Below, in pieces: positions 14,139-32,238 of a DNA stretch of 34,847 bases. Every line of letters begins with the position of its first letter. The stretch's first letter is position 1. The notes under the pieces were generated by a model that was not told where the DNA came from, searched no databases, and saw only the letters and a list, made by a program, of their open reading frames with translations. Origin of the DNA: Novosphingobium capsulatum (lineage in GTDB: Bacteria; Pseudomonadota; Alphaproteobacteria; Sphingomonadales; Sphingomonadaceae). The stretch is from positions 1-34,847 of the forward strand of contig DQVI01000202.1 of assembly GCA_015661825.1 (NCBI GenBank), in the 5' to 3' direction. Made by a program: the position numbers and the translations under genes.

Positions 14139-16377
14139 TTACCCCTGATATTCAAATAGGATGGTGGCAAGGCCGGGCAGGACGACGAAGGCCGCCCCGT
14201 CCCGTGCCTCGATGGTTCCCGTATTGCCCCGTCCGCTGCCGCCGTAGACGTCAGAGTCGGAATTGATCACTTCGCGCCAGACGCCCGCATGGGGCACCGG
14301 CAGGCGATAATGATCGTGGCAGGTGGGGGTCATGTTGGCGACGACGAGCACCGGATTGGCGCCGGGCGCGCGGCGTACCCAGGCAAAGACCGAGGCCAGC
14401 GCATCGTTGACGACCAGCCATTCGAAGCCTTCGGGCTCGCAATCGCGGGCATGGAGCGCAGGCAGCTCGCGATAGGCGCGGTTGCAGTCGCGCACGAACG
14501 CGCGGACCCCGGCATGGGCGGGCGCATCGAGCAGGTCCCAGTCGAGCGCGCGGGCCTCGCTCCATTCGCGGCGCTGGGCGAATTCCTGGCCCATGAACAG
14601 CAGCTTCTTGCCCGGATAGCCCCACATGAGGCCGTAATAGGCGCGCAGGCTGGCAAATTTCTGCCAGTCGTCGCCGCTCATCTTGGTGATCAGGCTGCCC
14701 TTGCCGTGGACGACCTCGTCGTGGCTCAGGGGCAGGACGAAATTCTCGGAAAAGGCATACATCAGCCCGAAGGTGATTTCGTCGTGGTGATAGCGCCGAT
14801 GAACCGGGTCGCGCGCCATGTAGCGCAGCGTGTCGTTCATGAAGCCCATGTTCCACTTGAACCCGAAGCCGAGCGAACTGGGGCGTTCGCCAGTGGGGGA
14901 AGGGCCTTCAACCGGGAGGGTCACGCCCGGCCACGAGGTCGATTCCTCGGCCACGGTGATCACGCCGGGGCAGGTGCCATAGAGCGCGGTGTTCATCGCG
15001 CGCAGGAAATCGACCGCCTCCCAGTTCTCGCGCCCGCCTTGCGCATTGGGGATCCATTCGCCACCCTCGCGCGAATAGTCGCGATAGAGCATCGAGGCCA
15101 CCGCATCGACGCGCAGTCCATCGACATGATAGCGCTCGGCCCAGAACAGCGCGTTGTTGACCAGAAAATCGCGGACTTCGCGGCGCCCGAAATTGTAGAT
15201 CGCGGTGTTCCAGTCGGGGTGGAAGCCAAGCCGGGGGTCTTCGTGTTCGTAGAGCGCGGTGCCGTCGAAGCGCGCGAGGCCATGGGCGTCGGTCGGGAAA
15301 TGGGCGGGCACCCAGTCGACCAGCACGCACAGGCCCGCCCGGTGCGCGCCATCGACGAAGCGGGCAAACCCCGCCACATCGCCAAAGCGCGCCGAAGGGG
15401 CATAGAGCCCGGTCGTCTGGTAGCCCCAGCTCGGGTCGTAGGGATGCTCGGAAACCGGCAGGAACTCGATATGGGTGAAGCCCATGTCGACGACATAGGG
15501 GATCAGCCGGTCGGCCAGTTCGTCCCAGTTGTAGAATTCCCGGCCCCCTCCGGGCTTCTGCCACGAGCCGGGATGGACCTCGTAGATCGAAATCGGCATC
15601 CGGCGCGGATCGGCGGCGGCCCAGAATGCGCGGTGGGCTTCGTCGCCCCAGACGTGGGGTGGTATGTCGAGCGTGAGCGAGGCGGTGTGCGGGCGCAGCT
15701 CGGTCGCGAAGGCGAAAGGGTCGGCCTTGTAGGGCTGGACCGTGCCGTCCGGGCCGACGATCCGGTACTTGTAGGCGCGCCCCCCCCCGATGCCGGGCAG
15801 GAAGATTTCCCAGATGCCGGTATCGGTGCGGCGGCGCATGGTGTGGCGCGTGCCATCCCAGTCGTTGAAATCGCCCACCACGCTCACCAGCCGGGCATTG
15901 GGCGCCCAGACCGCGAAATGGACCCCGCGCGCGCCTTCATGGTCGATCACATGGGCGCCCAGCTTGTCGAACAGGCGGTGATGGGTGCCCTCGACGATCA
16001 GGAAATCGTCGATCGGGCCCAGCACCGGCCCGAACGAATAAGGGTCGGTCACCTCCCATGTGTGCGGCCCGGCGCAGCAGGCATAGCGCACCGGCTGGCG
16101 TTCACCGTCAACTGGCCCCCCCGAAATTGGCCCCTCGAACAGGCCGCGCGGATCGACGCGGGTCAGTTCGCCCAGCAGCGTCCCGTCGAGCGCGAAGGCC
16201 TGCGCCCGTTCCGCGCCGGGCAGGATCGCGCGGGCAAAGGCCCCCTGCGGCCCCGGATGAATGCCCAGCAGCGAGAACGGGTCGGCATGGGTTCCCGCCA
16301 GCAGCGCGGCGATGGCTTGCGCGGGCGGCTGGAGCGAGGGCGTTTCAGGGGAGGGCGGGGGCGCAGGCGGCAGCGGA

Positions 16378-16403
<26 letters not shown>
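14139..16403 (-). CDS. glgB: 1,4-alpha-glucan branching enzyme
   Basis: GlgB cuts alpha-1,4 chains and rejoins them as alpha-1,6 branches. The 754-residue protein has a Pro-rich N-terminal tail ([13 protein letters not shown]), an N-terminal domain beginning [20 protein letters not shown], a CBM48 domain ([23 protein letters not shown]), a GH13 barrel and an all-beta C-terminal domain. Catalytic residues are Asp433 ([16 protein letters not shown]), Glu486 ([10 protein letters not shown]) and Asp562 ([11 protein letters not shown]). The start at 16403 (MPAISGESD) overlaps the 3' end of glgP by 26 bp; the frame is open a little further to 16442. No strong Shine-Dalgarno sequence is visible, consistent with translational coupling to glgP. 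Confidence 0.95.
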
Positions 16404-18792
<2,389 letters not shown>

Positions 18793-18816
18793 GGCACCTG
18801 GCTCCACCTGCATGCG

Positions 18817-18862
18817 GGCCCGTCTCATGCTGCACCTTTTGGCATGCAGCATGAGACGGGCC
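18817..18862 (-). repeat. Perfect 18-bp inverted repeat in the glgP leader
   Basis: GGCCCGTCTCATGCTGCA (18817-18834) and TGCAGCATGAGACGGGCC (18845-18862) are exact reverse complements with a 10-nt spacer. In the glg transcript this gives a very stable hairpin ending 24 nt before the glgP start codon. No U-tract follows, so it is not a classical terminator. It may be an mRNA stabiliser, a translational control element or a protein-binding dyad. Confidence 0.9.
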
Positions 18863-19166: not shown

Positions 19167-21299
19167 TCAGCGCAAGCCGATTCGCAGGCCCGCCCACAAG
19201 GTGCGCGGCGTGCCGATGTCGATCGAGCCACCCGAATTGCGGGTCACGATCGTCTCGTCGAACAGGTTCTCCCCGCGCAGGGTGAGGCTGGCCCATGTGG
19301 TCAGCGGAATTTGCGCGAAGGCGTCGAGCGTGGTGGCCGGGGCCAGCGGTGCGCTTTGCAGGTCGTCTTCATAGGCAAGGCCGGTGTGGCGCACCGTGAG
19401 CGCGCCGGTCCAGCGCGGGGCGGGGCTCCACGAGAGCGTGGCGCTGCCCGCGATGCGCGGGGTCTGCGAGGGGCGCATGCCGTCCATATTGGTGCCCGGC
19501 GCCTCGACCTTGGCGTCGGTATAGGCAAAGCTGCCCGAGAGCGCGACCTGGCCCCTCTCGATCCGGGTTGCCACCTCGACCCCGCGCGCGTGGACCGCGC
19601 CGACATTGCGGCGCTCGCGGGTCGTCGTGGTCGAGGCGCCCGATGTCACCGTCGAGAGCGTGACATTGGCGATGGCATCGCGCACCTTGTTGTCGAAGCC
19701 GGTGACCGAGAGCGTCACGCCGCGCGCAGGCGTCAGGTCGATGCCGCCTTCAAAGCCGAGCAGGCGCTCGTTGGCGAGGGCGGGGTTGCGGTTGGTGATC
19801 GTCGTCGAATTGGGGGCCGTCACGCGGAACGAGCGATAGAGTTCGTTGAGCGTGGGCATGCGCAGGCCGGTATAGCCCGAGCCGCGCAGCGCAAGCCACG
19901 ACGCGGCATGGACCACCGCGCCCGCGCGCCAGCTGCCATACCAGCCACTGCGCGGCGCCACTGCCGGATCGCCGACCGAGGTCGCGGTGACGACCGTGCC
20001 TGCCGGGTTGAGTTCCTGATAGTGGCCCTGCGTGATCGCCCAGCGGTCGAGACGGCCCCCGGCGGTCAGCACCACGGGCCCGAGCGTCCAGTCGTCCTCG
20101 GCAAAGAAGCCCACGTCGTCGGTGCGCCCGCCGGCCCGGCGCCGCGCGGTGACGAGGCCGGTCACGGTGGAGATCGCGTTTTCCTTCGATTCCCCCTCGG
20201 CCCGGCGCCAGTCGGTGCCCAGCTTCAGGACATGACCGCCGCCGACGGGCGGGCGCAGTTCGAACTTGGCGCCAAGGCCGGTCGAAGGCGTGCCATACTG
20301 GTCGAGCGTGGGGCGATGCTGCGAGGCCGGGGTCGATCCGGCGGTCACCGCGTTGAAATCGCGCGCCTGGACATAGGCCAGTGCATCGAACTGCCAGCGT
20401 CCGCGCCCGACGAGGCGCAGGCTGGCATCCTGCCCCGAAATGCCGGTGGTGGCCCCGGCAAAACGCAAGGTGCGCTTGTCGGAAAAGGCGGCGATGCGGC
20501 CCTGAAGCTCGATGTCGGGGCTGACCGGAACGACCGTGCGCAAGCCGGTCGACCAGCTTTCATAGCGGGCGCGCACGCTGGCGAAATCGCGCTGGCTTTC
20601 CGGTGTCGTCCAGAAGCCCTGCCCACGGTCCCAGCGTCCGGTCAGCACGGCAAAGCCCTGTCCCAGACGCGGGGCGAGCGCCCCCGAGAGCGAGGTTTCG
20701 CCCCGGTCGTCGGCCATGACCTCGCCATTGAACAGGCCCATTTGTGCAGGCCCCGCGCTCGTCATGTCGATGGTTCCGGCCACGGCGCCCGCCCCGAACG
20801 CGCCCGAGCCGCCGCCGCGCTGGACACGCACGGAGGCGAGGCGTTCGGGGCTGATCGCGCTGAACGGAATATAGCCGAAGAACGGATCGGCCATCGGCAC
20901 CCCGTCGAGCAGGACGAGCGTGCGGCTGGTGGCATTGCCGCCCAGCGCGCGCAAGGTGATGCCCTGCGACGAGGGATTGGAGGCGCGGCTGTCGGACCGG
21001 CGGAACTGCTGGAGCCCGGCGATATTGAGCAGGGCATCGTCGATCCGGCCCGAGGCGGTTGCCAGCAGGCGCTCGCGGTCGATGGTCTGGGTCGAATAGG
21101 CCGGGGCTGCCGGCGTGGCGTCGAGGCCCTGTCCGGTGACGACGATCACCGGCCCTGAAATCGGGGTGGATGCGGCAGGCGCGGGTGCCTCGCCGGTGTC
21201 GGCGCCAGTATCGGCTAGAGCGGCCACGCCCGAAAGCGCGGCGACGAGCGCCAGCGCGGAAACCGTCAACCGGGAGAGCGAATTCACACCTGCATGCAC
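19167..21299 (-). CDS. TonB-dependent outer membrane receptor (BtuB/CirA-like)
   Basis: This 710-residue active-transport receptor has a signal peptide (about residues 1-29, ending GVAALA), a TonB-box-like PVIVVTG at residues 50-56, a plug domain (about 60-170: DDALLNIAGLQQFRRSDSR, GITLRALGGNATSRTLVLLDGVPMADPFFG) and a 22-strand-type barrel. The start is a GTG with AAGGA 10 nt upstream. The C-terminus ends IGLR, without the terminal aromatic residue usual in outer membrane proteins. The substrate is not evident. It is co-directional with the glg operon 374 bp downstream, and divergent from vdh across a 624-bp control region. I found no cobalamin riboswitch motif upstream. Confidence 0.9.
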   Translation of the reverse strand: MHAGVNSLSRLTVSALALVAALSGVAALADTGADTGEAPAPAASTPISGPVIVVTGQGLDATPAAPAYSTQTIDRERLLATASGRIDDALLNIAGLQQFRRSDSRASNPSSQGITLRALGGNATSRTLVLLDGVPMADPFFGYIPFSAISPERLASVRVQRGGGSGAFGAGAVAGTIDMTSAGPAQMGLFNGEVMADDRGETSLSGALAPRLGQGFAVLTGRWDRGQGFWTTPESQRDFASVRARYESWSTGLRTVVPVSPDIELQGRIAAFSDKRTLRFAGATTGISGQDASLRLVGRGRWQFDALAYVQARDFNAVTAGSTPASQHRPTLDQYGTPSTGLGAKFELRPPVGGGHVLKLGTDWRRAEGESKENAISTVTGLVTARRRAGGRTDDVGFFAEDDWTLGPVVLTAGGRLDRWAITQGHYQELNPAGTVVTATSVGDPAVAPRSGWYGSWRAGAVVHAASWLALRGSGYTGLRMPTLNELYRSFRVTAPNSTTITNRNPALANERLLGFEGGIDLTPARGVTLSVTGFDNKVRDAIANVTLSTVTSGASTTTTRERRNVGAVHARGVEVATRIERGQVALSGSFAYTDAKVEAPGTNMDGMRPSQTPRIAGSATLSWSPAPRWTGALTVRHTGLAYEDDLQSAPLAPATTLDAFAQIPLTTWASLTLRGENLFDETIVTRNSGGSIDIGTPRTLWAGLRIGLR

Positions 21300-21520: not shown

Positions 21521-21555
21521 AAAAAAAGGGGCCGCACCAGAACGGGCGGCCCTTT
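21521..21555 (-). terminator. Intrinsic terminator inside the receptor leader (minus strand)
   Basis: On the minus strand, AAAGGGCCGC (21555-21546) and GCGGCCCC (21535-21528) form a GC-rich stem with a 10-nt loop, followed immediately by seven T residues (21527-21521). It faces the TonB receptor gene, whose start is about 220 bp further on. A terminator in a divergent spacer cannot serve a gene end, so it should be an attenuator or the end of a small RNA. Confidence 0.7.
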
Positions 21556-21578
21556 GGAAGTTTGGGAGAGGATGCCTG

Positions 21579-21613
21579 AAAGGCCCGTTCTTTTTGCTGT
21601 TTGGGCGGCCTTT
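21579..21613 (-). promoter_or_regulatory. Upstream pairing blocks of the putative attenuator
   Basis: On the minus strand, AAAGGCC (21613-21607) can pair with GGCCTTT (21585-21579). The second block, as GAACGGGC (21590-21583), can instead pair perfectly with GCCCGTTC (21547-21540), part of the terminator's first arm and loop, with an extra AAAG/CTTT pairing beyond a 4-nt bulge. The two states exclude each other, the layout of an attenuator. The trigger is unknown. Confidence 0.5.
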
Positions 21614-21702
21614 GTGCAAGTGCGAAAACTTCCAATTTCATTGCGTAATATGCAACTGTAAACGGGCGGGAAAGCCTGTTTTATAACGGTTGTTTGCATA
21701 GA

Positions 21703-21728: not shown

Positions 21729-21923
21729 ATTTTTATTTTCGTGTTTGGCGGCATCCGCGCTTTTTCGGGGTGCGCTTTGTGCAAGTCGCTGAGGGGCGGC
21801 CCTGAGGGGGCTTTCGCAGGTTTTTCCGGTATTTCTGTTCATTTCCGGCCCTGTGGCGCGTGGTCCCGGTTGCATGCTTGAACGGTGATTGCTATCAATC
21901 ATAACATAATTGGGAGATTCGAG

Positions 21924-23324
21924 ATGCAATTTGAACGGCACAACCCGCTTACGGGCGCGGTTGCCTCGTCGGCGCAGGCGATGCAGGCGGCTGAAATTCC
22001 CGCCATTGCCGCCCGCGCGGGTGCGGGCTTCCCGGTCTGGGCGGAAATGGGCCCCAATGCGCGCCGTGCCGTTCTGATGAAGGCGGCCAGCGCGCTCGAA
22101 GCCCGCGCCGAGGCCTTTGTCGAGGCGATGATGGGCGAGATCGGCGCCACGCGCGGCTGGGCGATGTTCAACCTCACGCTCGCCGCCTCGATGGTGCGCG
22201 AGGCGGCCGCGCTGACGACGCAGATCGCGGGAGAGGTGATCCCGTCGGACAAGCCGGGGTGCCTGGCCATGGCCCTGCGCGAACCGGTCGGCGTGATCCT
22301 GGGCATCGCACCGTGGAATGCGCCGATCATTCTGGGGGTGCGGGCCATCGCCACGCCGCTGGCCTGCGGCAATGCGGTGATCCTCAAGGCCTCCGAACAG
22401 TGCCCGCGCACCCATGCCCTGATCATCGAGGCCTTTGCCGACGCGGGGTTCCCCGAGGGCGTGGTGCAGGTCGTCACCAATGCCCCGGCCGACGCGGGCG
22501 CGGTGGTGGGCGCGCTGATCGACGCGCCTGAAGTGCGCCGCATCAACTTCACCGGCTCGACCACGGTGGGCCGGATCATCGCCCGGCGCGCGGCGGACCA
22601 TCTGAAACCCTGCCTGCTCGAACTGGGCGGCAAGGCCCCGCTGGTGGTGCTGGAGGATGCCGACCTCGATGAAGCGGTCAAGGCGGCGGCCTTCGGGGCC
22701 TTCATGAACCAGGGCCAGATCTGCATGAGCACCGAGCGGATCATCGTCGTCGATGCCATTGCCGATGAATTCGCCCGCCGCTTCAAGGCCAAGGTCGAGA
22801 CGCTCACCGTCGGCGACCCGCGCGAGGGGACGACCCCGCTGGGCGCGGTGGTCGACGCGAAAACGGTCGCCCATTGCCGGGCGCTGGTCGACGATGCGCT
22901 CGCCCATGGCGCGAGCCTGCTGGTGGGCGGGGAAACCACGCACAATGTCCTGATGCCCGCCCATGTCGTCGATGGTGTCACGCGCGAGATGAAGCTGTTC
23001 CGCGACGAGAGCTTCGGCCCGGTCGTCGGCGTGATCCACGCGCGCGACGAGGCCCACGCCATCGAACTGGCCAACGACAGCGACTATGGCCTGTCTGCCG
23101 CCGTCTTCACCCGCGACACCGCGCGGGGCTTGCGCGTCGCGCGCCAGATCCGCTCGGGCATCTGCCACATCAACGGCCCGACCGTGCATGACGAGGCCCA
23201 GATGCCCTTCGGCGGGGTCGGCGCCTCGGGCTATGGCCGTTTTGGCGGCAAGGCGGGCATCGACAGTTTCACCGAACTGCGCTGGATCACGATGGAGACC
23301 CGGCCCGGACACTTTCCGATCTGA
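21924..23324 (+). CDS. vdh: Vanillin / 4-hydroxybenzaldehyde dehydrogenase
   Basis: This 466-residue NAD(P)-dependent aldehyde dehydrogenase should oxidise vanillin or 4-hydroxybenzaldehyde to the acid. The catalytic Cys267 is in NQGQICMSTERI, the general base Glu233 is in LLELGGKAPLVVLEDADL, and the cofactor stretch GIAPWNAPIILGVRAIATPLACGN and INFTGSTTVGR are intact. The ATG at 21924 has GGGAGA 7 nt upstream; an earlier in-frame GTG at 21885 lacks support. The vanillin-dehydrogenase assignment rests on sequence flavour and, more strongly, on the hydroxycinnamoyl-CoA hydratase-lyase gene 68 bp downstream, whose product is this substrate. Salicylaldehyde-type dehydrogenases are close relatives. 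Confidence 0.85.
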   Translation: MQFERHNPLTGAVASSAQAMQAAEIPAIAARAGAGFPVWAEMGPNARRAVLMKAASALEARAEAFVEAMMGEIGATRGWAMFNLTLAASMVREAAALTTQIAGEVIPSDKPGCLAMALREPVGVILGIAPWNAPIILGVRAIATPLACGNAVILKASEQCPRTHALIIEAFADAGFPEGVVQVVTNAPADAGAVVGALIDAPEVRRINFTGSTTVGRIIARRAADHLKPCLLELGGKAPLVVLEDADLDEAVKAAAFGAFMNQGQICMSTERIIVVDAIADEFARRFKAKVETLTVGDPREGTTPLGAVVDAKTVAHCRALVDDALAHGASLLVGGETTHNVLMPAHVVDGVTREMKLFRDESFGPVVGVIHARDEAHAIELANDSDYGLSAAVFTRDTARGLRVARQIRSGICHINGPTVHDEAQMPFGGVGASGYGRFGGKAGIDSFTELRWITMETRPGHFPI

Positions 23325-25906: not shown

Positions 25907-25958
25907 AGACACACGGCGCTTGATCGAAACGCCGCGCCATGATTGGTGTGGCCCCACG

Positions 25959-27578
25959 ATGACCACCGTGACCCTGCCCCCGCGCCCCGTCTACGATCCC
26001 CGCCTGCTGGCCGCCGCCAGCGCGATGAACGCCAACCGCCTGCCCGAGGCCGAGCCACTGCTGCGCGCGCTGCTGCGGGAAGACCCGTTCGACGTGCGCG
26101 CGATCCGCCTGTTTGCCGAACTGGCCGGGCGCATCGGCCGCTATGGCGACGCGGAAAACCTGCTGCGCCGCGCCATCGAGCTTGACCCCGCGTTTACGCC
26201 CGCCCGCGCCAACTTGGCGCTCGTCCTCTATCGCACCAACCGCGCGGCTGAGGCGCTCGACCAGCTTGCGCAAGTGACCCGCGAAGATCCCGACAATCCC
26301 AGCCACGCCAATCTGGCTGCCGCCGCCAATGGCCGCATCGGCGCATTTGACGCGGCGCTGGCGCTCTATGAAAAGGTGCTGGCCGATGCCCCGGCCCAGC
26401 CGCGCGTGTGGATGAGCTATGGCCACATGCTCAAGACCGTGGGGCGTCAGGCCGATGGCATTGCCGCCTATCGCCGCGCGCTGGCCCTGATGCCGGGGCT
26501 GGGGGAGGCGTGGTGGAGCCTTGCCAACCTCAAGACCGTGCGCTTTTCGGATGAAGACATTGCCGCCATGGAGCAGGCCCTGTCTGATCCCGGATTGGGC
26601 GCGGAAGACCGCTGGCATCTCGATTTCGCGCTGGGCAAGGCCTTCGAGGACCGGCGCGAGGCGCAGACTGCCTTTGCCCATTATGCCGCCGCCAATGCCC
26701 TGCGCCGCAAGCGCATTCCCTACAAGGCCGACGAGACCACCGCGACCATCGACGCGATGATCGCCGTGGCGACGCCTGCCCTGTTCGAGGCGGGGGAGGG
26801 GGCGGGCTGCCCGGCGCCCGATCCGATCTTCGTGGTCGGCATGCCGCGCGCCGGCTCCACGCTGGTCGAGCAGATCCTGGCCAGCCACAGCCAGGTCGAG
26901 GGCACCAGCGAACTGCCCGACATCGCCCAGCTGGCGCGCAAGGTGCCCGATTATCCGGCGGGTCTGGCAAAGCTCACGCGCGAGGATTTGCGCGCGATGG
27001 GCGAGAGCTATCTGCACACCACGCGCATCCAGCGCCACACCGCGCGGCCCCTGTTCATCGACAAGATGCCCAACAACTGGGTTCATGTTCCGCTGATCCG
27101 GCTGATCCTGCCGCGCGCGCGGATCATCGATGCGCGGCGTCACCCGCTCGGCTGCTGCTTTTCCAACTTCAAGCAGCATTTTGCGCGCGGGCAGGGGTTC
27201 TCCTACGATCTGGAGGACATGGGGCGCTATTATGCCGATTATGTGCGGCTCATGGCCCATGTCGATGCGGTGCAGCCCGGCACGGTTCACCGGGTGATCT
27301 ACGAGGCCATGGTCGAGGAGACCGAAACGCAGGTGCGCGCCCTGCTGGCGGCCTGCGGCTTGCCGTTCGAGGAAGCCTGCCTGGCCTTCCACAAGACCGA
27401 GCGCGCGGTCCGCACGGCCAGTTCCGAGCAGGTGCGCCAGCCGATCTTCCGCGAGGGCACCAGCGCGTGGAAGCCGTTCGAGCCCTGGCTCGATCCGCTC
27501 AGGGCCGCGCTCGGGCCGGTTCTGGAAAGCTATCCTCACGCACCGACAGTTTATGATTGGCCGCAAGGTTATGATTGA
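25959..27578 (+). CDS. Tetratricopeptide-repeat sulfotransferase
   Basis: The 539-residue protein joins N-terminal TPR repeats (about residues 15-190, with copies such as GRYGDAENLLRRAIELDPAF and NRAAEALDQLAQVTREDPDN) to a C-terminal PAPS-dependent sulfotransferase domain. The 5'-phosphosulfate loop is VVGMPRAGSTLVEQIL (Gly294 to Thr301), and the 3'-phosphate site is DARRHPLGCCFSNFKQHF. The combination recalls protein sulfotransferases, but the acceptor is unknown. No signal peptide is seen, so it is probably cytoplasmic. The start at 25959 (MTTVTLPPRPVYD) lacks a strong Shine-Dalgarno sequence; an in-frame TTG at 25920 is an alternative. It lies 128 bp before a TonB-dependent receptor in the same direction. 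Confidence 0.88.
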   Translation: MTTVTLPPRPVYDPRLLAAASAMNANRLPEAEPLLRALLREDPFDVRAIRLFAELAGRIGRYGDAENLLRRAIELDPAFTPARANLALVLYRTNRAAEALDQLAQVTREDPDNPSHANLAAAANGRIGAFDAALALYEKVLADAPAQPRVWMSYGHMLKTVGRQADGIAAYRRALALMPGLGEAWWSLANLKTVRFSDEDIAAMEQALSDPGLGAEDRWHLDFALGKAFEDRREAQTAFAHYAAANALRRKRIPYKADETTATIDAMIAVATPALFEAGEGAGCPAPDPIFVVGMPRAGSTLVEQILASHSQVEGTSELPDIAQLARKVPDYPAGLAKLTREDLRAMGESYLHTTRIQRHTARPLFIDKMPNNWVHVPLIRLILPRARIIDARRHPLGCCFSNFKQHFARGQGFSYDLEDMGRYYADYVRLMAHVDAVQPGTVHRVIYEAMVEETETQVRALLAACGLPFEEACLAFHKTERAVRTASSEQVRQPIFREGTSAWKPFEPWLDPLRAALGPVLESYPHAPTVYDWPQGYD

Positions 27579-27706
27579 TTGCAGCAATGCGTTGCAAAAC
27601 TGTCACGCTTATCTGTGATCTATTGGTATCGTTTGCATCCACTTGACGCATGATCATGTCGCAGCGCACACCCTTGCGCATAAGTATGTAACAGGGTGGA
27701 TTTATC

Positions 27707-30244
27707 ATGCGTTTTGTGACGGCGGGTCTCCCGCGTTTTCTCCTGATGACGAGCACGGCGCTTCTTGCTCCGGCGACCGTCGCCATGGCCCAGGAGGCCG
27801 CGCCCGCACCTGCCTCTCCTCCCACCGTCGTTCCTGACGCTGCACCCGCTGCGGAAGAGGGCAACGTCATCATCGTGACCGCGCAGAAGCGTTCGGAAAA
27901 CCTCCAGAACGTGCCGATCTCGATCCAGGCGCTCAGCACGCAGAAGCTCGACCAGCTCCACGTCAGCGATTTCAAGAGCTACACCCAGCAGCTCCCCTCG
28001 GTGATCTCGCAGAACTCGGGTACGCCGGGCACCAACATCATCTACATGCGCGGCGTGGCCTCGGGCGGCGACGGCAACCACTCGGGCCCGCTGCCCTCGG
28101 TCGGCGTCTATCTCGACGAACAGCCGGTCACCACCGTGGGCGGCAACCTCGACGTCCACATCTACGACATTGCCCGCATCGAAAGCCTCGCCGGGCCGCA
28201 GGGCACGCTCTATGGCGCCTCGTCGGAAGCGGGCACGATCCGCATCATCACCAACAAGCCCGATACCACCGGCTATTATGGCCGCATGGACGCCGAAGTG
28301 AACAAGGTCGGTCCGGGCGGCGTCGGGGTCAAGGTGGAAGGGATGGTCAACATCCCGCTCTCGCAGAAGGCCGCGCTGCGCGTGGTTGGCTTCTACCAGA
28401 AGGACGCGGGCTACATCGACAACGTGGCGGGCACACGCTGCTTCCTGCCGACCGACGGCGGCATCTGCGTCAACAATTCCAAGTACGTGAAGAAGAACTA
28501 CAACGACACCGAAGTGGCCGGTGGCCGCGCGGCGCTCAAGGTCGATCTGGACGACAACTGGACGGTCACGCCCACCGTCATGTACCAGGACACCCGCAGC
28601 CACGGCTCCTATGGCTATGACCCCAAGGTCGGCGACCTTCAGGTCCAGCACTTCTTCCCCGAATATCGCCACGATACGTTCGTTCAGGCCGCGCTGACGG
28701 TCGAGGGCAAGATCGGCTCGTGGGATCTCACGTATGCGGGCGCCTACCTTGACCGCAAGACGTTCCAGTCGAGCGACTACACCGACTATGCCGAGGCGTA
28801 TGATTCGCTCTACAGCAGCGCGGGTGGCCTGGCCGGTTATGCCTATTACAAGGACAATGCGGGCAACACGATCGACCCGCGCCAGCAGATCTTCGGCTCG
28901 GACCACTTCAAGAAGCTGAGCCAGGAACTGCGCATCGCGTCGCCCTCGACCGAGCCGCTGCGCGTGGTCGGCGGCCTGTTCTACCAGCGCCAGTCGAACC
29001 TGATCCATCAGGACTATCAGGTCGCGGGCCTGGCCGACGATCTCTCTGTCAATGGCCATCCCGGCACGCTCTGGCTGACCCAGCAGCACCGCATCGACAA
29101 GGACTATGCGATCTTTGGCGAGGTCAGCTACGACATCTTCCACAACCTGACCGCGACGGCGGGCGGGCGCTACTTCAAGTACGACAACTCGCTGATCGGC
29201 TTCTTCGGCTTCGGCCGCAATCCCGGCTACTATCAGGGCGCCGACGACAATCCGCCGCCCAACGGCGCGGGCTCGTCGCGCACGGGCGTGGCGGGGTGCT
29301 ACACCAGCGATGGCCTGACCCTGCGCGATGCGCAGTCGGCGGGCGAAACCGGCATCTCGCTGCTTCCCGCGGCGGTTGCGGGCGGCCCCTGCACCAATCT
29401 GGGTGACTATGTGAACGGGGGCGTGGTGCCCAAGCGGGCCAAGGGCGATGGCGCGACCTATCGCTTCAACCTGACCTGGAAGCCCATGCACGATGTCATG
29501 GTCTATGGCACGATCTCGCGCGGGTTCCGTCCGGGCGGGATCAACCGCCGCGCCGATGTCGCGCCCTATCGCTCGGACTTCCTCACCAACTACGAACTGG
29601 GCATGAAAACGACCCTGTTCAACGGTTTGCTGCGCCTCAACGTCGCGCTCTACCAGCAGAACTGGAAGGATTTCCAGTTCGCCTATCTGGGGGCGAACAG
29701 CTTCACCGAAATCCACAACGGCCCCGATGCGCGCATTCGCGGCGTGGAATTCGATGCCAATGTGGTCAAGGGCGGGCTGAGCCTCAACGTGGGCGGCGCC
29801 TATACCAACGCCACGACGCGCAAGAACCTCTGCTCGGTCGACGATCCGACGTATACTTGCGCGGGCAGCGAAATTCTTGCCCCCAAGGGCACCCGCCTGC
29901 CGATCACCCCGCAGTGGAAGCTGGCGAGCACGCTGCGTTACGCGAAGAATGTGGGCGAGGCGAAAGTCTATGGCCAGGTCAACGCCACGTTCCAGAGTTC
30001 GGCGGCGTCCGACTTGCGGGTCTACATGGCCAATGCGATGGGCTGGCTCCAGCCCTTCAGCCAGGTCAACCTCGCGCTGGGCACCGAATGGCGCAAGTAC
30101 AGCCTCGAGTTCTTCATGACCAACGTGGCCGACGAACGCGGCGATCTCTCGCGCTACATCGCCTGCTCGGTCTGCACGAGCCGCACCTACATCGTGCCCA
30201 ACCAGCCGCGCACGTTCGGTGTGCGTCTCGGGGCCAAGTTCTGA
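27707..30244 (+). CDS. TonB-dependent outer membrane receptor (FecA/oligomer-type, 845 aa)
   Basis: The 845-residue receptor has a signal peptide (about residues 1-28, ending ATVAMAQ), a Pro/Ala-rich segment, a TonB-box-like NVIIVTAQKR, a plug domain (NVPISIQALSTQKLDQL, SVGVYLDEQPVT, RIESLAGPQGTLYGASSEAGTIRIITNKP) and a beta barrel that ends in the expected terminal Phe (FGVRLGAKF). The plug motifs are those of the large sphingomonad receptor family that imports diverse carbon substrates, including aromatics and oligosaccharides; the ligand here is not known. GGTGGA lies 8 nt before the ATG. Tandem terminators follow. It is downstream of the TPR-sulfotransferase. The 128-bp spacer holds a palindrome, ATTGCAGCAAT, but no clear promoter. 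Confidence 0.92.
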   Translation: MRFVTAGLPRFLLMTSTALLAPATVAMAQEAAPAPASPPTVVPDAAPAAEEGNVIIVTAQKRSENLQNVPISIQALSTQKLDQLHVSDFKSYTQQLPSVISQNSGTPGTNIIYMRGVASGGDGNHSGPLPSVGVYLDEQPVTTVGGNLDVHIYDIARIESLAGPQGTLYGASSEAGTIRIITNKPDTTGYYGRMDAEVNKVGPGGVGVKVEGMVNIPLSQKAALRVVGFYQKDAGYIDNVAGTRCFLPTDGGICVNNSKYVKKNYNDTEVAGGRAALKVDLDDNWTVTPTVMYQDTRSHGSYGYDPKVGDLQVQHFFPEYRHDTFVQAALTVEGKIGSWDLTYAGAYLDRKTFQSSDYTDYAEAYDSLYSSAGGLAGYAYYKDNAGNTIDPRQQIFGSDHFKKLSQELRIASPSTEPLRVVGGLFYQRQSNLIHQDYQVAGLADDLSVNGHPGTLWLTQQHRIDKDYAIFGEVSYDIFHNLTATAGGRYFKYDNSLIGFFGFGRNPGYYQGADDNPPPNGAGSSRTGVAGCYTSDGLTLRDAQSAGETGISLLPAAVAGGPCTNLGDYVNGGVVPKRAKGDGATYRFNLTWKPMHDVMVYGTISRGFRPGGINRRADVAPYRSDFLTNYELGMKTTLFNGLLRLNVALYQQNWKDFQFAYLGANSFTEIHNGPDARIRGVEFDANVVKGGLSLNVGGAYTNATTRKNLCSVDDPTYTCAGSEILAPKGTRLPITPQWKLASTLRYAKNVGEAKVYGQVNATFQSSAASDLRVYMANAMGWLQPFSQVNLALGTEWRKYSLEFFMTNVADERGDLSRYIACSVCTSRTYIVPNQPRTFGVRLGAKF

Positions 30245-30257
30245 GGCAACGGGATCA

Positions 30258-30281
30258 GACGGGGGCCTCATGGCCCCCGTC
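30258..30281 (+). terminator. First of two terminators after the TonB receptor
   Basis: GACGGGGGCC (30258-30267) and GGCCCCCGTC (30272-30281) form a perfect 10-bp stem with a TCAT loop, followed by CCTTTC. It starts 13 bp after the receptor stop. Confidence 0.75.
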
Positions 30282-30296
30282 CCTTTCAGGACCAGG

Positions 30297-30337
30297 CGGG
30301 AGGGAAGGGGCGAGGCGCCTTCCCTCCCGTTTCTTTT
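30297..30337 (+). terminator. Second, stronger intrinsic terminator
   Basis: CGGGAGGGAAGG (30297-30308) and CCTTCCCTCCCG (30318-30329) form a perfect 12-bp stem with a 9-nt loop, followed by TTTCTTTT. Together with the hairpin just upstream it insulates dld from receptor transcription. Confidence 0.85.
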
Positions 30338-30371
30338 CAAGGTTTTGAGGAAATAATTCTAATTTGGAATG

Positions 30372-30404
30372 ATGATAATTCAAAACTATCATTTCAGGAA
30401 TGAT
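30372..30404 (+). promoter_or_regulatory. Overlapping dyads in the dld upstream region
   Basis: ATGATA (30372-30377) pairs with TATCAT (30387-30392), and ATCATT (30388-30393) pairs with AATGAT (30399-30404). The surrounding 30350-30405 is AT-rich, the likely promoter of dld. The elements are candidate operators for a lactate-responsive or other regulator not in the window. Confidence 0.4.
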
Positions 30405-30477
30405 GTTGGGCTCTCTATCTTCGGCGTCCCTTTTGCTGCGCCGGGAGCGTCCCGGCCTGATCCGCCGGATTTCAAGC

Positions 30478-32238
30478 ATGACCTTCGCGAATGTTCCGCC
30501 AGTTGCCAGTGCCAGCCATGTCCCGGTTTCCGGCCAGCCGGTCGATGCCGAAGGGCTTGTCGCGCGGCTTGAGGGGCTGGTGGGCCGGGCCCATGTCCTG
30601 ACCGGGGAAGGGGCCACGCGCGGCTTTTCCCATGGCATCCGGTTTGGCGCGGGGCCGGTGCTGGCGGTGGTGCAGCCCGGCAGCCTTGTCGAGCAATGGC
30701 GGGTGTTGTGCGCCTGTGTCGCGGCGGGGGTGATCGTGATCACCCAGGCGGCCAACACCGGCCTGACCGGCGGATCGACGCCCGATGGCACGTATGATCG
30801 CCCGGTGGTGATTATCTCGACACGCCGCCTTCATGGCATTCACCTGATCGATCAGGGGCGGCAGGTGGTCTGCCTGCCGGGGGCCACGCTCTATGAACTG
30901 GAGGCCCTGTTGCGCCCGTTCGGGCGCGAGCCGCATTCGGTGATCGGCTCGTCGTGCATCGGGGCTTCGGTCATGGGGGGCATCTGCAACAATTCAGGCG
31001 GCGCGCTGGTGCGGCGCGGACCGGCCTATAGCGAAATGGCGCTCTATGCCCGCGTCGATGCGCGCGGCCAGCTCGAACTCGTCAACCATCTGGGTATCGC
31101 ACTGGGCGAAGGGGCGCTGGGGGAGGAGGCCGAGGCGATGCTTGCCCGGCTCGAACGCGGCGGGTTCACGCCCGAAGAGATCGATCTGGCCCCCGCGCGC
31201 GCGGCCAGCGACCATGGCTATGCCGGGCATGTCCGCCAGATCGATGCCGATACGCCCGCCCGTTTCAACGCCGATCCGGGCCGTCTGTTCGAGGCTTCGG
31301 GCAGCGCGGGCAAAGTCATGCTGTTCGCCGTCCGCCTCGATACGTTTGAAAAGGACAAGGAAACCCGCGTTTTCTACATCGGCACCAACGATCCGGCGGA
31401 ACTGACCGCGCTGCGCCGCGCGATCCTGGGCGGGTTCGCCCATCTGCCGGTGGCGGGTGAATATATGCACCGCACCTGCTTCGACATCGCCGCGCGCTAT
31501 GGCAAGGATACCTACCTTGCCATCCAGAAGCTGGGGACCGACCGCATCCCCGCGCTGTTTGCGGCCAAGGCGCGCATCGACGGCCTGCCGTTCGTGCCGG
31601 CCGGATGGTCGGACAAGGTGATCCAGTTCGCCGCCAACCTGCTGCCTTCGCACCTGCCGCCGCGCCTTGTCGAATGGCGCGACCGCTATGAGCATCACCT
31701 GCTGTTGCGCATGGCCGACGAGGGCATTGCCGAGGCAAAAGCATGGCTGGAGGCGCATTTTCCGTCAGCCAGCGGCGATTTCTTCGAATGTACCCCGGCG
31801 GAGGCTGAAGGCGCGTTTCTCCACCGCTTTGCCGCAGCGGGCGCGGCCAACCGCTATCGCGCGGTCCATGGGGATACGGTGGAGAACATCGTCGCGCTCG
31901 ACATCGCCCTGCCGCGCAATTGCGAGGACTGGGTGGAGACCCTGCCGCCCGAAATCGAGGGGCCGATCCTTCACAAGCTCTACTATGGCCACTTCCTGTG
32001 CCATGTCTTCCATCAGGACTACATCGTGGCCAAGGGCACCGATTGCATGGCGCTCGAAGAAGCGATGCTGCCTCTGCTCGACCGGCGCGGCGCGGAATAT
32101 CCCGCCGAGCACAATGTCGGCCATCTCTACCACGCCAAGCCTGCGCTGGCCGATCACTATGCGGCGCTCGATCCCTGCAACGTGTTCAATCCGGGCATCG
32201 GGCACACCTGCCGCGATGCGCGCGCGCCCAATCCGTAA
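30478..32238 (+). CDS. dld: Quinone-dependent D-lactate dehydrogenase
   Basis: Dld is a peripheral membrane flavoenzyme that oxidises D-lactate to pyruvate and passes electrons to the quinone pool. The 586-residue protein follows E. coli Dld along its full length: AVVQPGSLVEQWRVL, ITQAANTGLTGGSTP (FAD domain), GREPHSVIGSSCIGASVMGG, NNSGGALVRRGPAYSEM, VAGEYMHRTCFDIAARYGKD, FPSHLPPRLVEWRDRYEHHL (approximate order) and LHRFAAAGAANRYRAVH, ending in AEHNVGHLY and NPGIGHT. The start at 30478 (MTFANVPP) fits the family length; the frame opens earlier at 30400, but that start would lie inside the AT-rich operator region. Its TAA stop directly abuts the stop of the convergent response regulator, with no spacer. 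Confidence 0.94.
   Translation: MTFANVPPVASASHVPVSGQPVDAEGLVARLEGLVGRAHVLTGEGATRGFSHGIRFGAGPVLAVVQPGSLVEQWRVLCACVAAGVIVITQAANTGLTGGSTPDGTYDRPVVIISTRRLHGIHLIDQGRQVVCLPGATLYELEALLRPFGREPHSVIGSSCIGASVMGGICNNSGGALVRRGPAYSEMALYARVDARGQLELVNHLGIALGEGALGEEAEAMLARLERGGFTPEEIDLAPARAASDHGYAGHVRQIDADTPARFNADPGRLFEASGSAGKVMLFAVRLDTFEKDKETRVFYIGTNDPAELTALRRAILGGFAHLPVAGEYMHRTCFDIAARYGKDTYLAIQKLGTDRIPALFAAKARIDGLPFVPAGWSDKVIQFAANLLPSHLPPRLVEWRDRYEHHLLLRMADEGIAEAKAWLEAHFPSASGDFFECTPAEAEGAFLHRFAAAGAANRYRAVHGDTVENIVALDIALPRNCEDWVETLPPEIEGPILHKLYYGHFLCHVFHQDYIVAKGTDCMALEEAMLPLLDRRGAEYPAEHNVGHLYHAKPALADHYAALDPCNVFNPGIGHTCRDARAPNP

Follow-up and report, generated by a model that had tools for sequence, protein, structure and literature searches.

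The RF00519 family of small RNAs is known from a few well-studied bacteria. SuhB of Sphingopyxis granuli TFA, an RNA of 61 nt, has an Hfq-dependent negative effect on translation of the thnR mRNA and is described as acting in tetralin catabolite repression (PMC6563040), and a role in carbon use is likewise described for SisA of Caulobacter crescentus, in a feast/famine switch (PMC12559287). The same account describes the siblings SisA-D as sharing no upstream motif, and an exact, single-stranded 10-mer, UUUCCUCCCU, as common to all alphaR8 RNAs. MmgR of Sinorhizobium meliloti is 77 nt long and is reported to be activated by NtrC (PMC7143759), and is given as the sole alphaR8 RNA of its genome (PMC12559287). 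For AbcR1, an anti-Shine-Dalgarno sRNA of S. meliloti, activation by the LysR-type protein LsrB through a motif at -61 to -49 has been described (PMC8844928).

The DNA analyzed here (the window) is a stretch of 34,847 nt from Novosphingobium capsulatum, contig DQVI01000202.1. On its minus strand, positions 21591-21514 match RF00519 (suhB/MmgR, alpha-r8 sRNAs) with 46.9 bits, above the gathering score of 41, in an alignment that spans positions 1-77 of the 77-position model. No other Rfam family reached its gathering score anywhere in the window, and no known aptamer class was found; a sequence-only reading of the same DNA had recognized none either. The predicted RNA, about 62-66 nt, covers 21521..21586 (-), with a 5' end most likely at 21586-21583, and has the architecture of the family. 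A 5' hairpin, GCC-UUUCA-GGC (21574..21584, -), is near-invariant in 65 copies of the RNA and formed in 205 of 205 folds; a single-stranded core of anti-Shine-Dalgarno type, AUCCUCUCCCAAA (21561..21573, -), is near-invariant in the same 65 copies; and a Rho-independent terminator with a run of U (21521..21552, -) was recovered in folds of the individual copies. Among copies from the genus the 5' domain GCCUUUCAGGCAUCCUCUCCCAAA is nearly invariant, and in copies from outside the taxonomic family UUUCCUCCC was present in 30 of the 30 fetched and GUUUCCUCCCU in 28. The canonical alphaR8 10-mer UUUCCUCCCU is absent from the window, the core being shifted, and the RNA was for this reason filed as a sphingomonad variant of RF00519, not as a canonical alphaR8 RNA. 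The start and level of its transcript, like its targets and its binding by Hfq, are predictions from sequence. As a whole, the stretch is best explained, with high confidence, as a free-standing gene for a trans-acting RF00519 sRNA of about 62-66 nt, one of four copies in the genome.

Placement of the start follows from the conservation of the DNA upstream of the RNA. From 63 loci, 66 copies were oriented and aligned without gaps on the core, and 65 were left after removal of one duplicate. Upstream information content is high in three blocks, the dyad TTGC-N7-GCAA, TTTCGCACTTGCACAA and CATANAG, and low in between. Reading these as operator, -35 and -10 gives a start at 21586-21583, and with it an RNA of about 62-66 nt; the position of the start is accordingly a predicted one. 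In the window the operator-like dyad (TTGCATATTACGCAA) lies at 21641..21655 (-), centered about -63 from the predicted start, and is followed by the -35 region TTTCGCACTTGCACAAA (21611..21627, -), recognized by its conservation in the 65 copies, with the hexamer TTGCAC at 21619-21614. Every position of TTTCGCACTTGC, outside the RNA, is retained in 58 to 65 of the 65 copies. The -10 hexamer of the window, CAAAAA (21591..21596, -), is an atypical, minority form that is possibly weak, the commonest letters of the 65 copies being CATATA.

The sequence-only reading had interpreted this stretch as a terminator/antiterminator-like leader in which four blocks on the minus strand, A to D, pair either as A:B together with C:D, to terminate transcription ahead of a TonB receptor gene, or as B:C, to exclude both and antiterminate. 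The blocks themselves were all found: A, AAAGGCC, at 21613-21607; B, GAACGGGCCTTT, at 21590-21579; C, AAAGGGCCGCCCGTTC, at 21555-21540; and D, GCGGCCCC, at 21535-21528, followed by seven T at 21527-21521. They also pair as drawn. The minimum-energy fold of a 126-nt RNA spanning all four contains A:B and C:D, that of a shorter RNA beginning just 5' of block A contains B:C, and the receptor is on the same strand about 222 nt past the terminator. The energy gained is modest (z of -1.82 for the 126-nt fold, with 9 of 200 shuffles equally good), and an additional 10-bp stem of that fold, UUGGAAGUUU/AAACUUCCAA, was rejected, having its 5' arm upstream of the -35 hexamer and so outside the predicted RNA. 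Since longer RNAs do fold in the manner proposed, the case against attenuation rests on the predicted start and on the lack of conservation. Block A is directly 3' of the -35 hexamer, within the 17-nt promoter spacer, and should therefore be untranscribed; block B, too, has its GAAC ahead of the predicted start. In an RNA that began 5' of block A the two forms would compete.

Conservation of the pairings was counted in 215 distinct copies, obtained after removal of duplicate sequences and of one duplicate locus (L035, of L004); a locus whose hairpin-core sequence was missed by the pattern (L015) and two family loci that repeat named records (L187, L201) were also dropped. Pairing A:B is complete (7 of 7 pairs) in 3 of the 215, namely the window, a copy from the same species and one other, and registers slid by 1-6 bases do equally well (for example, four complete at +4). 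All eight B:C pairs are present in 11 of 215 copies, which is the chance level, 8.1 +/- 2.4 being expected when 5' ends are dealt among copies. C:D is a different matter. It forms a self-contained terminator hairpin in all 205 copies folded, and the 5' arm of the terminator occurs in 109 distinct sequences with pairing retained, which shows that C:D is real. In these 205 folds, made from the inferred start, pairing between 5' end and terminator never reaches 4 pairs; each RNA folds as the first hairpin plus the terminator. For this analysis, which presupposes that start, the RNA was taken from three bases 5' of the hairpin, and one copy lacking a U-run and nine shortened to less than 58 nt were left out by rule. 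Each copy was folded separately because RNAalifold, applied to an alignment of 50 copies (A1), reported the first hairpin alone, with no covariation, and did not recover the terminator, a miss that we think was caused by misplaced gaps.

Conservation of the blocks, synteny, folds from the inferred start and the Rfam search together led to rejection of the attenuator and riboswitch readings. Neither the conserved, mutually exclusive pairings nor the constant downstream gene on the same strand that are expected of such a platform was found: C:D is kept in relatives and A:B and B:C are not, the receptor occurs at 4 of 14 conserved loci, and the sRNA is the sole match at gathering score in the window. 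Control of the receptor by a leader RNA that switches between the two pairings is thus highly improbable. The other suggestion made in the same reading, that a small RNA ends here, is supported, C:D being the terminator of the RF00519 sRNA; what had been read as a leader is a gene of a known sRNA family.

The genes on either side of the sRNA gene point in the same direction. It is located in a gap of about 0.6 kb between a divergent aldehyde dehydrogenase gene (21885..23324, +; Pfam PF00171) and, downstream, the TonB-dependent receptor gene (19167..21299, -; Pfam PF00593 and PF07715). The dehydrogenase is the steadier neighbor of the window copy, being upstream and divergent in 14 of the 215 copies. 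At these 14 loci, by mechanical ORF calls, the receptor is downstream in 4, the next ORF is on the opposite strand in 7, and another ORF on the same strand follows in 3. The sRNA gene travels with the dehydrogenase rather than with the receptor, and the 4 of 14 makes a cis-acting leader unlikely. A mixed arrangement can be imagined, in which the sRNA is made and read-through of its terminator also provides the 5' leader of a receptor mRNA in the few species so organized; the two genes share a strand, with about 222 nt between them, and their order is retained at four loci (L004, L036, L037 and L042). Against a strong terminator with seven U, and given the rarity of the arrangement among the loci examined, such read-through is quite doubtful. 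Elsewhere in the window, genes for a glycogen branching enzyme and a carbohydrate phosphorylase follow the receptor on the same strand (14139-18852), and a TPR-sulfotransferase protein, a second TonB-dependent receptor and a membrane-binding D-lactate dehydrogenase are encoded consecutively at 25920-32238 (+).

The free-standing sRNA gene is a member of a widespread set. In its own genome (3.53 Mb in 246 contigs) RF00519 has five matches, four of them over the cut-off; the fifth, C246:11462, scored 33.5 bits, under the cut-off, has no core, and was dropped as a terminator-only match. Of 59 genomes of the genus, 58 have the RNA family, in one to seven matches per genome; across the taxonomic family it was found in 105 of 119 genomes, and across the class in 89 of 143. 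Three copies are in tandem within about 0.9 kb in Novosphingobium clariflavum (L116), and seven other loci (L073, L094, L110, L112, L125, L127 and L144) contain two RF00519-type matches each. The best-scoring copy of the present genome (contig C246, locus L001) adjoins a conserved gene that by eye resembles a Cdc48-type AAA ATPase, as do copies at 56 other loci, and this position is possibly an old location of RF00519 in sphingomonads.

The dyad upstream of the promoter is common to these copies. With at most one mismatch and in register (within 1 base), it precedes 4 of 4 copies in the genome itself, 28 of 31 in the genus and 26 of 29 in the family (24 of 27 without duplicates, and with one of the 29 loci, L204, belonging to the window's own genus), in copies that were chosen by the RNA model alone from the best-scoring loci of each search and are therefore a non-random sample. 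Shuffled upstream sequences have it in 0.2% of cases. The exact dyad occurs anywhere in the 90 nt upstream in 4 of 4, 19 of 31 and 17 of 29 copies, respectively, and exact TTGC-N7-GCAA was found within 110 nt upstream in none of the 30 copies fetched from outside the family. In named genomes, the distance from dyad to RNA is 56 nt at 112 of 128 places among the matches listed, when 45-65 nt was allowed; 124 copies were retrieved by a pattern that itself contained the dyad and, being biased for it, are evidence of spacing alone. All four copies of the genome have the exact dyad, although one has an altered -35 (contig C53, L002) and the window copy an altered -10. A tighter form of the pattern, TTGCRWWWWNYGCAA, occurs at four distinct places in the genome, and the pattern read backwards at none.

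A dyad so placed could be the binding site of a regulator or an extension of the promoter. In the latter case it would belong to an extended constitutive promoter and the copies would not be co-regulated; the fixed distance between dyad and -35 and the lack of a known regulator are in keeping with this, as is the near-constitutive expression described for Caulobacter SisA (PMC12559287). The shape of the element, two 4-bp arms around a variable A/T-rich middle, is instead that usual for the site of a dimeric regulator, and the tight pattern is restricted to just four genomic places, so that a constitutive element seems unlikely, though far from negligible. LysR-type activators recognize a T-N11-A dyad (PMC8844928), and a center near -63 is the usual activator position. 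A T-N11-A is contained in TTGC-N7-GCAA, upstream of the -35, and it is for this form and position that a protein of LysR type is proposed. The sRNA copies are thus probably controlled together by a putative LysR-type regulator. The LysR-type helix-turn-helix has 37 matches in the genome, of which 30 loci were fetched. At one of them (L375:1465-1489, contig C67) TTGCGTGATATGCAA lies some 10 nt upstream of the ATG of a LysR-type gene, which makes that gene a weak candidate for the regulator. The dyad shows little or no enrichment at LysR loci (3 in 91 kb, compared with 5 in the 195 kb examined at other loci), and this gene is for that reason kept as a lead. A further dyad, TTGCAATTTATGCAA, is present near a trpB-like ORF (by eye) at L384:1501-1515 on contig C184, but there the -35 element typical of the sRNA promoters is missing.

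Of the two remaining places with TTGCRWWWWNYGCAA in the genome, one is on contig C138, where the dyad, a near-identical -35 and a leader precede an ORF of 27 codons, MRKFATVVLPLILAAGVSGAMFTATLV (L386:1685-1768). The ORFs on either side, by eye GuaA and GluQ, have a glutamine amidotransferase and a class I Glu/Gln tRNA-synthetase domain, respectively. The 17 nt from dyad to GCACTTG is the same distance as in the sRNA promoters, and in a scan allowing 10-24 nt a dyad-to--35 distance of 17 nt was found at 23 of 23 places outside the sRNA genes. A blastn search of 194 genomes of the genus gave matches in 63, overlapping the 27-codon ORF in 58 and consisting of other pieces alone in 5. The 30 best loci were fetched; at 25 of them the match begins no earlier than the Shine-Dalgarno of the ORF, so that their promoters had no part in the selection. 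The dyad is nonetheless exact in 28 of the 30 and present with at most one mismatch in all 30, and exact GCACTTG or GCATTTG follows at the same distance in 25. The ORF looks to be coding, judging from differences at the three codon positions of 2411, 1057 and 2650 in pairwise comparison of 28 distinct sequences, and from 1495 synonymous against 1476 non-synonymous single-base codon differences among pairs of the same sequences. By eye, the 27-residue peptide is hydrophobic and probably membrane-inserted. Neither Pfam nor NCBIfam has a family for it, and in three small-ORF loci compared with Rfam no match reached the gathering score.

Most of the small-ORF leaders have in common a block such as CUGGGAGGAUGCCUGCAAAGG that is near to the reverse complement of the 5' domain of the sRNA. 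In local alignment 23 of 30 leaders have p <= 0.01 against 500 dinucleotide shuffles of their own sequence (p = 0.006 for the leader of the genome itself) and three more have p of 0.012-0.018, all these loci being related and the tests not independent; four (L402, L404, L413 and L414) lack the site. The leaders of three of the latter (L402, L404 and L413) carry GCAAGTGCGAA, whose reverse complement is the conserved TTCGCACTTGC. Leaders scored a mean of 22.5 against the core, compared with 40 shuffled cores that averaged 13.6 and reached 16.1 at most; it is the sphingomonad core that fits, the canonical alphaR8 core scoring 14.7, and 24-nt windows of the sRNA starting at least 12 bases past the 5' end scored at most 14.9. 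A site complementary to the sRNA core, as in CrfA, is thus present in most of the small-ORF leaders. Single-sequence folds of 25 leaders gave no obvious common structure.

Anti-Shine-Dalgarno RNAs fit many purine stretches, and the match between leader and sRNA could be incidental, reflecting purines that resemble a Shine-Dalgarno. Duplex energy alone is ordinary: shuffled targets were as low as the own leader in 38 of 300 and 13 of 300 cases for two sRNA copies, as were 145 of 748 genomic windows, which is unremarkable. Moreover, 9 of 5098 windows from other loci of the genome equal the alignment score of the own leader (windows antisense to an sRNA copy included), and the site is missing from 4 of 30 leaders. 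The complementarity, however, continues through a stretch like AUGCCUGAAAGG that is outside any Shine-Dalgarno signal, the mean of 22.5 exceeds every one of the 40 shuffled cores, and the site precedes the true Shine-Dalgarno, most loci having it at about -42 to -23 and the present genome at -60 to -42. An incidental match is, on this evidence, on the unlikely side. With its site in that position, the small-ORF mRNA may be a repressed target, an activated target or a sponge. Its promoter and site suggest a co-regulated target or sponge that would work like Caulobacter CrfA.

Other targets of the sRNA were sought in the same genome. Raw energies of duplexes with the core are lower for leaders of TonB receptors (30 of 53 Plug matches) than for those of ABC transporters (29 usable of 36 matches), with p of 0.026. 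Relative to shuffled cores the difference is not supported (mean z of -0.06 for 30 TonB-receptor leaders and 0.24 for 29 ABC-transporter leaders, p of 0.11), and the comparison lends no support to TonB receptors as a target class of these sRNAs, as they are of SisA in Caulobacter. Complements of the core (TTGGGAGAGG, with one mismatch) have 125 matches compared to 78 for the reversed pattern; the 30 such loci fetched, which include the four sRNA genes, showed no convincing site at a start codon.

These findings can be assembled into a working model. A regulator bound at TTGC-N7-GCAA, probably of LysR type, would control the sRNA copies together. The C/U-rich core of each sRNA, probably with Hfq, would pair with purine-rich mRNA leaders and reduce translation, the mode of action published for SisA and SuhB. 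The 27-codon mRNA, made from the same type of promoter and with a near-complement of the sRNA 5' domain in its leader, would be a co-expressed target or sponge. It is proposed, tentatively and with the balance falling a little short of even, that a single sphingomonad regulator acting through this dyad turns on sibling sRNAs and, in Novosphingobium, a dual-function mRNA that encodes a membrane-type peptide of 27 residues and, through the near-complete antisense of the sRNA 5' domain in its leader, would be target and sponge at once. If true, the mRNA would be a built-in brake or threshold, reached by another route than Caulobacter CrfA. Among the listed titles and abstract openings of the openly licensed literature neither the shared dyad nor the 27-codon partner was found, and the combination of dyad, sibling sRNAs and co-controlled mRNA with an antisense site would be a sphingomonad regulatory unit not found described in the literature searched. 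Sphingomonads include many degraders of pollutants, and the shared dyad and candidate partner mRNA make the question of how these sRNAs are themselves controlled directly testable.

Among the known systems, SuhB of S. granuli is likewise from a sphingomonad and RF00519 by name, and its 61 nt agrees with the 62-66 nt predicted here; the Novosphingobium genome differs in having four copies. MmgR, which Rfam names in describing RF00519, is similar, by description, in core and terminator, but is single-copy and NtrC-activated; the four Novosphingobium copies have an exact dyad that none of 30 copies outside the family has within 110 nt upstream. LsrB and AbcR1 offer a parallel with another sRNA and another site consensus (GCAT-N3-TG-N3-T). 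SisA-D and CrfA of Caulobacter are alike in comprising several alphaR8-family siblings, a C/U-rich core and an RNA with a complementary purine-rich site; in contrast to SisA-D, the four Novosphingobium copies share a dyad, and the core sequence differs. CrfA is described as an sRNA (PMC12559287), whereas the Novosphingobium candidate is a site in the leader of a conserved 27-codon mRNA and hence is no CrfA-like sponge RNA in its own right, although that leader may act as one. Should the pairing prove real, sRNAs of this kind may have gained a purine-rich sponge as a partner on more than one occasion.
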